This document shows positions 9,157-12,703 of a stretch of DNA of 33,380 nucleotides, one piece after another (position 1 is the first letter of the stretch; each line of letters begins with the position of its first letter). The notes under the pieces were generated by a model. It was not told the origin of the DNA, did no database searches, and worked only from the letters and a program-made list of their open reading frames with translations. The DNA comes from Devosia equisanguinis. Lineage in GTDB: Bacteria > Pseudomonadota > Alphaproteobacteria > Rhizobiales > Hyphomicrobiaceae. The position numbers and the translations under genes are program-made. The stretch lies in NCBI GenBank assembly GCA_945862355.1, contig CAMAYR010000029.1, forward strand, positions 1 through 33,380, written 5' to 3'.

Positions 9157-10248
9157 TCAGCGCCCGCCGCATTGGGCGCGATGGCGCAGCAGGTGATCGG
9201 CCAGGACAATCGCCGCCATCGCCTCGCCGACCGGGACGGCGCGAATGCCGACGCAGGGATCGTGACGACCCTTGGTCATGATCTCGGTCTCGTTGCCATG
9301 GCGGTCGATGGAGCGGCGCGGGATCAGGAGCGACGACGTCGGCTTGACGGCAAAGCGCACCACCACCGGCTGTCCCGTCGAGATGCCGCCGAGAATGCCG
9401 CCGGCGTGGTTCGACAGGAACAGCGGCTTGCCGTCGTTGCCCATGCGCATTTCGTCGGCGTTGTCCTCGCCGCGCAGGCGGGCGGCCTCGAAGCCGTCGC
9501 CGATCTCCACGCCCTTGACGGCGTTGATGCTCATCATGGCGCTCGCGAGGTCCTGGTCGAGCTTGCCGTAGATCGGTGCACCCCAGCCGACGGGGACCCC
9601 TTCTGCGACCACCTCGATCACGGCGCCGAGCGAGGAGCCGGCCTTGCGCGCGGCATCGAGCCGATCGGTCCATTCCTGCACCATGCCGGCATCGGGGCAG
9701 AAGAACGGGTTGTTGTCGACCTCGGCCCAATTCCAGCGCGAGCGATCGACGGGCACGCCGCCCATCTCGACGAGAGCGCCCCGGATCGAGACGCCGGCGA
9801 GCACCTTGCGCGCCACGCCGCCCGCTGCGACACGCATCGCCGTCTCGCGTGCGGACGAGCGGCCACCTCCGCGATAGTCGCGGATGCCATACTTCTCCCA
9901 GTAGGTGAGGTCGGCGTGGCCGGGGCGGAACTTGTCCTTGATGTCGCCGTAGTCCTTGGAGCGCTGGTCGACATTCTCGATGTGCAGTGCGATCGAGGTG
10001 CCGGTGGTCACCTGGCGGCCATCGTCGTCGGTGAACACGCCCGACAGGATACGCACTTGGTCGGGCTCCTGACGCTGCGTGGTGAAGCGCGAGGTGCCGG
10101 GGCGGCGCTTGTCGAGGTAGCGCTGCAGGTCGGTCTCTGCGAGGGGAATGCCCGGCGGGCAGCCGTCCACCACGCACCCGATGGATGGCCCGTGGCTCTC
10201 GCCCCAGGTGGTGACACGGAAAAGATGGCCGAATGTGTTGTGGGACAT
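9157..10248 (-). CDS. aroC: Chorismate synthase
   Basis: A 363-residue enzyme making chorismate from 5-enolpyruvylshikimate-3-phosphate, the last step of the shikimate pathway; it needs reduced FMN. Signature stretches are [19 protein letters not shown] near residues 15-33, [19 protein letters not shown], the [20 protein letters not shown] motif near 126-145, and [16 protein letters not shown]. The ATG at 10248 matches the conserved [10 protein letters not shown] start; an upstream ATG at 10299 would add 17 unrelated residues. In related Hyphomicrobiales aroC often lies close downstream of fabI. Here fabI is on the same strand but about 1.2 kb away, with unrelated plus-strand sequence between. 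Confidence 0.97.
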
Positions 10249-11415: not shown

Positions 11416-12270
11416 CTAAGCGGCGTCGTCGGACTTCATAACCGAGATGTCCGGCGCGTCCTCGTTCTTCATGCCCTGGACGTGATAGCCGGCATCGACA
11501 TGATGAATTTCGCCGGTCACGCCACGACCGAGGTCTGACAGAAGGTAAAGCGCCGAAGCGCCAACCTCTTCGATCGTAACCGTGCGCCGCAGGGCCGAGT
11601 TGTACTCGTTCCACTTCAGGATATAGCGGAAGTCTGCGATGCCTGAGGCAGCCAATGTCTTGATCGGCCCAGCGGAAATCGCATTCACGCGAATTGCGCC
11701 ACGGCCGAGGTCGGCGGCGAGGTAGCGCACACTCGCTTCCAAGGCAGCTTTTGCGACGCCCATCACGTTATAGTGCGGCATGACCTTCTCGGCGCCGTAA
11801 TAGGTCAGCGTCAGGATCGAGCCGCCGCCCTTCATGAGGGGCTCGGCGCGCTTGGCGAGCGCAGTGAGCGAGTAACATGAGATCAGCATCGTCTGCGTGA
11901 AGTTCTTTTCCGACGTGTCGACATAACGGCCGTCCAGCTCGTTCTTGTCGGAGAAGGCGATCGCATGGACCAGAAAATCGAGGCGGCCCCACTCACGCTC
12001 GAGCGTGGCGAAAACTTCATCCATCGAGGCGTTGTCGCTGACGTCGCAGGGGAGAACGATCTTAGAGCCGAGTTCGGCGGCCAACGGCACGACACGCTTC
12101 TTGAGCGCATCGCCCTGGTAGGTAAGGGCGATTTCGGCGCCATGATCGGCCAGCGCCTTGGCGATACCCCAAGCGATCGAGCGGTTGTTGGCGACGCCCA
12201 TCACAAGCCCGCGCTTGCCCGCCATCAGCGTTCCGCCCGGAATCCTGGCGCCAACGTCATTACCGCTCAT
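11416..12270 (-). CDS. fabI: Enoyl-[acyl-carrier-protein] reductase (NADH) FabI
   Basis: A 284-residue SDR-fold enzyme that reduces trans-2-enoyl-ACP in each round of type II fatty-acid synthesis. FabI features are GKRGLVMGVANNRSIAWGIA (about 18-37), LPCDVSDN, HAIAFSDKNELDGRYVDTS, and the catalytic Y157...Y167-x6-K174 arrangement in the TYYGAEKVMPHYNVMGVAK region. ISAGPIKTLAASGI then identifies FabI rather than an ordinary SDR. ATG at 12270. About 15 N-terminal residues precede the usual FabI start and a C-terminal tail of some 15 residues (DAPDISVMKSDDAA) follows; both are modest. aroC lies downstream on the same strand. Confidence 0.96.
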   Translation of the reverse strand: MSGNDVGARIPGGTLMAGKRGLVMGVANNRSIAWGIAKALADHGAEIALTYQGDALKKRVVPLAAELGSKIVLPCDVSDNASMDEVFATLEREWGRLDFLVHAIAFSDKNELDGRYVDTSEKNFTQTMLISCYSLTALAKRAEPLMKGGGSILTLTYYGAEKVMPHYNVMGVAKAALEASVRYLAADLGRGAIRVNAISAGPIKTLAASGIADFRYILKWNEYNSALRRTVTIEEVGASALYLLSDLGRGVTGEIHHVDAGYHVQGMKNEDAPDISVMKSDDAA

Positions 12271-12461: not shown

Positions 12462-12542
12462 TCTAGTGTAGCGCATCTGACGTTTGGTACCCGCTTGCGG
12501 CTGGGCTCTCAACCAAACGTCAGATGAAGAAGCTACACTAGA
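12462..12542. repeat. Long palindromic element, copy 1
   Basis: The outer stem TCTAGTGTAGC (12462-12472) pairs perfectly with GCTACACTAGA (12532-12542). The inner stem CATCTGACGTTTGGT (12474-12488) pairs perfectly with ACCAAACGTCAGATG (12512-12526). The internal loop is 1 base against 5; the apical loop is 23 bases and includes CCGC-TT-GCGG. Architecture and arm sequences match copy 2. It has no open reading frame and no T tract, so it looks like an intergenic repeat (REP- or MITE-like) rather than a terminator. Confidence 0.85.
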
Positions 12543-12550
12543 ATCATAGA

Positions 12551-12635
12551 CTTGCTAGTGTTCCTTATGGTTCTGACATTTGCACCGAGCCTCGCCGCAA
12601 CGGGAAGCAAATGTCAGAACCGGAACACTAGCGAG
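12551..12635. repeat. Long palindromic element, copy 2
   Basis: The outer stem GCTAGTGTTCC (12554-12564) pairs perfectly with GGAACACTAGC (12622-12632) and extends three more pairs, one of them T-G, to 12551/12635. The inner stem GGTTCTGACATTTGC (12569-12583) pairs perfectly with GCAAATGTCAGAACC (12607-12621). The 23-base apical loop equals that of copy 1. The arms share CTAGTGT and TCTGAC-R-TTTG with copy 1, but differences occur as compensated pairs. Confidence 0.85.
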
Positions 12636-12703
12636 CGGATCTGTTGCGACCATCCCCGGAAGGCTGCCATAAGGGCCGGGATCGAGCGCCGAGGTCAACG
12701 TGC

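Follow-up and report, generated by a model that had tools for sequence, protein, structure and literature searches.

Several kinds of short palindromic repeat that lie dispersed between bacterial genes have been described. RUP of Streptococcus pneumoniae is a 107-bp MITE that is related to IS630-Spn1 and inserts at TA (PMC2229807). The CIR elements of Caulobacter and other Alphaproteobacteria (Chen and Shapiro 2003) are approximately 110 bp long and have no mobiliser assigned to them (PMC2229807). Bru-RS1 and Bru-RS2 of Brucella, which measure 103 to 106 bp, are palindromic dispersed repeats that also serve as a landing place for insertion sequences (PMC2266754). The REPINs and BIMEs consist of inverted pairs of palindromic REP units, often with a conserved spacer, and the units themselves are 20 to 40 bp long and tagged with GTAG or CGTC (PMC3733652).

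In the window, i.e., the whole stretch of 33,380 nucleotides of Devosia equisanguinis DNA that was analysed, two long, near-perfect palindromes are present between fabI and a D-2-hydroxyacid dehydrogenase gene, where a preliminary description had placed them. That description took them for two tandem copies with unrelated loops. They are instead the two halves of a single 169-bp element, which consists of hairpin A, a linker, and hairpin B (Table 1) and whose limits were set by the boundaries common to the other copies in an alignment of copies from the same genome. Hairpin B is inverted relative to hairpin A; i.e., A aligns end to end, through the loops, with the reverse complement of B (score = 88) and less well with B in the direct orientation (score = 58), which makes the element as a whole an inverted dimer. 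In both hairpins, the 15-bp inner stem was confirmed as perfect and the loop as 23 nt long, whereas the outer stem, which had been given as 11 bp, holds as 10 bp in the family consensus, the 11th pair being made with neighbouring bases. Nor are the outer and inner stems stacked on both sides, because each linker-side arm carries 3 to 5 extra nucleotides. The last base of hairpin A and the start of the linker together form GAATC (12541-12545), a GANTC site. The two neighbouring genes lie on opposite strands, so that the element sits between divergent genes. Just to its right and upstream of the dehydrogenase gene, a promoter-like stretch, TTGCGA-N18-CATAAG (12644-12673), which is a putative promoter, can be aligned in the host and in three congeners, and the insertion thus seems to have spared it.

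Table 1. Element between fabI and the dehydrogenase gene: parts, positions in the window, and basis of assignment.
Feature	Position	Strand	Basis
fabI	11416-12270	-	
D-2-hydroxyacid dehydrogenase gene, other neighbour of the element		+	
Whole element, CTAG to CTAG, 169 bp	12463-12631	.	Own-genome copy boundaries; equal length in most other-species copies
Left terminal CTAG, target-like; putative TA duplication 12464-12465	12463-12466	.	Empty sites of homologous copies hold a single CTAG-like tetranucleotide
Hairpin A, 79 nt	12463-12541	+	Both stems perfect: outer, 10 bp; inner, 15 bp
Outer terminal inverted repeat, A end, CTAGTGTAGCGCATCTGACGTTTGGTACCC	12463-12492	+	Likeness to IS630-family ends
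Loop of hairpin A, 23 nt	12489-12511	+	
Linker-side extra bases of hairpin A, AAGAA	12527-12531	+	Extra 3-5 nt in 39/39 copies measured
Linker, 13 nt	12542-12554	+	Conserved across species
Hairpin B, 77 nt, inverted homologue of A	12555-12631	-	A and reverse complement of B align end to end
Linker-side extra bases of hairpin B, TTAT	12565-12568	+	
Loop of hairpin B, 23 nt	12584-12606	+	
Outer terminal inverted repeat, B end; minus strand reads CTAGTGTTCCGGTTCTGACATTTGCTTCCC	12602-12631	-	Likeness to IS630-family ends
Right terminal CTAG; putative TA duplication 12629-12630	12628-12631	.	Empty sites, as for the left CTAG

The element resembles RUP in being a short non-coding repeat with IS630-like ends and a putative insertion at TA, but it differs in length, sequence, and host phylum, and PMC2229807 does not describe RUP as two arms with a linker. 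With the CIR elements, it shares a pair of long inverted-repeat arms with a linker between them, a terminal TA, GANTC, an intergenic position, and an alphaproteobacterial host; on the other hand, its greater length and the location of GANTC in the linker and not at the terminal loop set it apart by description. Bru-RS1 and Bru-RS2 are likewise palindromic dispersed repeats of Alphaproteobacteria and are distinguished from it by length; a double hairpin related to the element occurs in Brucella rhizosphaerae. Since the element is separated from both the CIR and the Bru-RS repeats by their descriptions only, a sequence match to either would make it an already known element. Like the REPINs and BIMEs, it pairs palindromes in inverted orientation; however, its hairpins are much longer than REP units and carry CTAG at both ends in place of a GTAG or CGTC tag, and it is not accompanied by a RAYT gene flanked by the repeat.

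We interpret the element as a non-autonomous MITE that is mobilised in trans by a transposase of the IS630 family (Tc1/mariner superfamily) at TA within CTAG, and we put the probability of this reading at roughly 0.8. What appeared to be a regulatory structure is a mobile genomic parasite and not a gene switch. A mobiliser can be proposed for it, and its empty sites are precise. Having landed between two divergent genes in the window, it probably does nothing for either.

The host assembly comprises 5.05 Mb in 353 contigs. It gave 22 forward matches to the exact arm-loop-arm pattern, whereas the reversed control did not match at all, a result well beyond what chance would give. By DNA similarity, approximately 40 places were found in the same genome, mostly full dimers in unrelated flanks, many of which are more than 90% and up to 99% identical. 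As a short, non-coding, multicopy, dispersed sequence, the element thus has the attributes of a MITE. The preliminary description had made its case for a dispersed element depend on further copies or on structural conservation in relatives, and both exist: the same design is present in many Alphaproteobacteria, with at least 104 pattern-matching stretches in named genomes, including Hyphomicrobium, Phyllobacterium, Mesorhizobium, Devosia, Roseibium, B. rhizosphaerae, Sphingomonas, and Novosphingobium. The dimer, the linker, and the length (169 bp in most) are alike across copies from different orders. Of 289 evenly sampled alphaproteobacterial genomes, the host alone matched the exact hairpin pattern, which means either that the element is unevenly distributed or that the pattern was too strict; a plasmid collection gave only four weak matches to the window element. 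A contig labelled Candidatus Obscuribacter (L059:195-363) carries a typical alphaproteobacterial copy and is probably misbinned.

GANTC is found in the centre or linker of 11 of the 31 own copies and 56 of the 103 copies from elsewhere. These counts bear on whether the element, whatever its origin, is of the CIR type and is retained because it serves regulation linked to methylation or the organisation of the nucleoid. The Caulobacter and Brucella CIRs are described as two inverted-repeat arms and a linker, with GANTC, which agrees with the linker site in about half of the other-species copies. Nevertheless, such a role is very unlikely, given the low retention of the site among the own copies, its position outside the loop, the lack of gene-orientation bias among copies, and the absence of the element from the fabI locus in all three congeners compared. 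The fixed layout of the double hairpin may supply the mobility mechanism noted as missing for CIR-type repeats (PMC2229807).

The intergenic DNA of the congeners at the fabI locus is too diverged for the exact insertion junction to be placed. Precise insertion is observed in Phyllobacterium, where the two flanks of copies were joined and searched in relatives: the empty sites hold one tetranucleotide, mostly CTAG (also CTAA, TTAG, CTGG, and ATGG), whereas the filled sites hold one per end. IS630 favours CTAG and duplicates TA. One Phyllobacterium copy has CTAA at its right end, and the empty site of a relative is likewise CTAA, consistent with duplication of TA and an outer base that came from the target. 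TA as the exact duplication would nevertheless leave two observations to be accommodated, namely, the ATGG empty sites at two loci, which fall outside a strict TA target unless mutated later, and an asymmetry in the own genome, where the A-end tetranucleotide departs from CTAG in 10/31 copies and the B-end one in 5/31, a difference not expected from a symmetric TA duplication. Half-elements were also seen to abut full copies with one CTAG in common (L017 and L029; e.g., G000:C149:9634-9710 beside 9707-9875), which suggests that the terminal CTAG of an earlier copy served as the insertion site.

The ends of the element are homologous to those of IS630-family elements. Sphingomonas 37zxx contains near-identical copies of the element, and an ORF at a contig end in this genome is the C-terminus of an IS630-family transposase, as annotated in its close homologues; the stop codon of this ORF is located within the terminal CTAG of the end CTAGTGGATTGATTCCAACGTTTGGTGCCC. 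Complete relatives of approximately 1.15 kb, annotated as IS630 family, are located between CTAG sites on plasmids of Polymorphobacter, Rhizobium, and Bradyrhizobium. Inside CTAG, the A end of the window element is identical to five of six IS630-family ends at 18 to 19 of 26 positions and the B end at 15 to 18, with 12/26 for both to the sixth; when six MITE ends were each compared with the six IS ends, CTAG excluded, identities ranged from 12 to 21 of 26 overall. The highest figure over 30 positions, 25/30, was that between the left end of the Bradyrhizobium elkanii IS630 and a Phyllobacterium MITE end. In a shuffle test with six hand-picked IS ends in a fixed register, p was ≤0.004 in 32 of the 36 comparisons and 0.008 to 0.015 in the other four, all of which involve the left IS end from Rhizobium brockwellii. 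The terminal inverted repeats therefore match those of an autonomous IS630-family element, which makes a transposase of this family the putative mobiliser. Neither PF13358 nor a C-terminal probe matched an IS630 in the host assembly, which is weak evidence since the host assemblies are fragmented; the probe matched in 8/34 host genomes and 10/289 genomes of the class sample at the stricter threshold, two groups that are not matched and hence not comparable as a test. For a MITE, an autonomous partner within its own genome is desirable but not a requirement, and Sphingomonas 37zxx does have such an IS630. A Novosphingobium MAG (G309; L285, L286, L287, and L288) contains four IS630 C-terminal remnants of 40 to 48 aa with an intact right end, which may have arisen by internal deletion and represent a step on the way to MITEs, or may be cut by contig ends.

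The MITE part of the earlier suggestion of a REP/MITE-like palindrome was thus upheld, while the REP/RAYT part was not. A REPIN-like repeat would be moved through single-stranded DNA by a Y1 (HUH, RAYT/IS200-type) transposase, with CTAG as the cleavage tetranucleotide and no true duplication. The inverted pairing of the palindromes is that of REPINs, and the greater variability of the A-end tetranucleotide is as if it were target-derived; however, the untagged CTAG termini and the match to IS630 ends both speak against this origin, and no Y1_Tnp match was found in 8 of the 11 host genomes searched, including ones with many near-identical copies. The RAYT-type transposase that had been proposed as a partner did not emerge in the host genome either: its only Y1_Tnp (PF01797) match, L046:1501-1857, has an in-frame TAG and adjoins no such hairpin. 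A RAYT/Y1 mobiliser fares worse than IS630 and was rejected after the search of the 11 hosts; we regard it as highly improbable.

In agreement with the earlier remark that pairing is kept while the sequence drifts, RNAalifold on 42 copies predicted 43 pairs, 23 of which show double-sided changes in at least one copy. Such changes, together with the very stable predicted folds of the hairpins, would be expected if the hairpins acted as RNA (a terminator, attenuator, or small RNA) and the covariation were the result of selection on it. RNA-level selection should favour G-U, but G-U and A-C mismatches are equally frequent in the stems (58 and 54 cells, respectively, in the larger set, and 17 and 18 in the own copies), although this is a weak test because the cells are not independent and the automatic alignment kept 24 pairs only. 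The absence of a G-U excess over A-C points to symmetry at the DNA level, maintained by binding of the transposase or by template switching that corrects the arms, as the source of the covariation. The neighbouring genes of the copies were tandem in 43 cases, divergent in 26, and convergent in 23, as assigned by a rough longest-ORF gene caller whose 15 'inside ORF' cases are unreliable, and no orientation is preferred. The Rfam scan of the window gave no match above the gathering score, and the position between divergent genes is also at odds with an RNA role, which we consider the least probable of the alternatives. With neither a bias in neighbour orientation nor a wobble excess, a terminator or attenuator role was rejected; the same two observations give no support to the twin binding site and paired attenuators of the preliminary description.

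In all 39 copies in which the four arms are measurable, the distance to the start of the core TGAC is 15 nt on the two outer arms, counted from the outer end, and 18 to 20 nt on the two linker-side arms, counted from CTAG. In several IS630 ends, the corresponding core is likewise 15 nt away; owing to the extra bases, this spacing occurs only at the outer ends of the element, which are presumably the only competent ones. With this shift of 3 to 5 bp, the two parts of a putative bipartite binding site would be turned against each other by as much as about half a helical turn. We envisage that the transposase would recognise the two outer 30-nt ends, cut at the TA inside CTAG, and insert the element at another CTAG-like site, which would leave TA (within CTAG) on either side. 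One imperfect palindrome, present in both orientations, makes up the two halves of the element. The end sequence recurs in the linker-side arms, where the extra bases separate its two parts; these arms would therefore be poor substrates, and the 169-bp dimer would move as a unit.

A second family, of the CTAGTGGCCC GTCGCGCCTAAATCG type, was found beside some copies and is present at least 40 times in the host genome. It is 168 bp long in 14 of the 16 copies read and has equal stems, extra bases, and linker layout, and its likeness to the first family is visible by eye only in CTAGTG and a few following bases. The fixed double-hairpin layout in two families of one genome provides a testable rule on active IS630-type ends. 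Tentatively, the two may represent an alphaproteobacterial class of mini-transposons defined by architecture and not by sequence, i.e., two inverted palindromes with 10- and 15-bp stems, 168 to 169 bp in total, in which the extra linker-side bases leave only the outer ends competent. Families that are dissimilar beyond their ends would have kept or converged on this design, and the double hairpin itself would be needed for transposition, e.g., for transpososome assembly or to block half-element excision. Copies of the first family abut copies of the second with the terminal CTAG-like site in common. This second family, with its 168-bp double hairpins of the CTAGTGGCCCGTCGCGCC type, is represented at L028:1341-1508, L032, and L289-L304, and related copies are present on contigs L132, L136, and L144 of Alphaproteobacteria BRH_c36.
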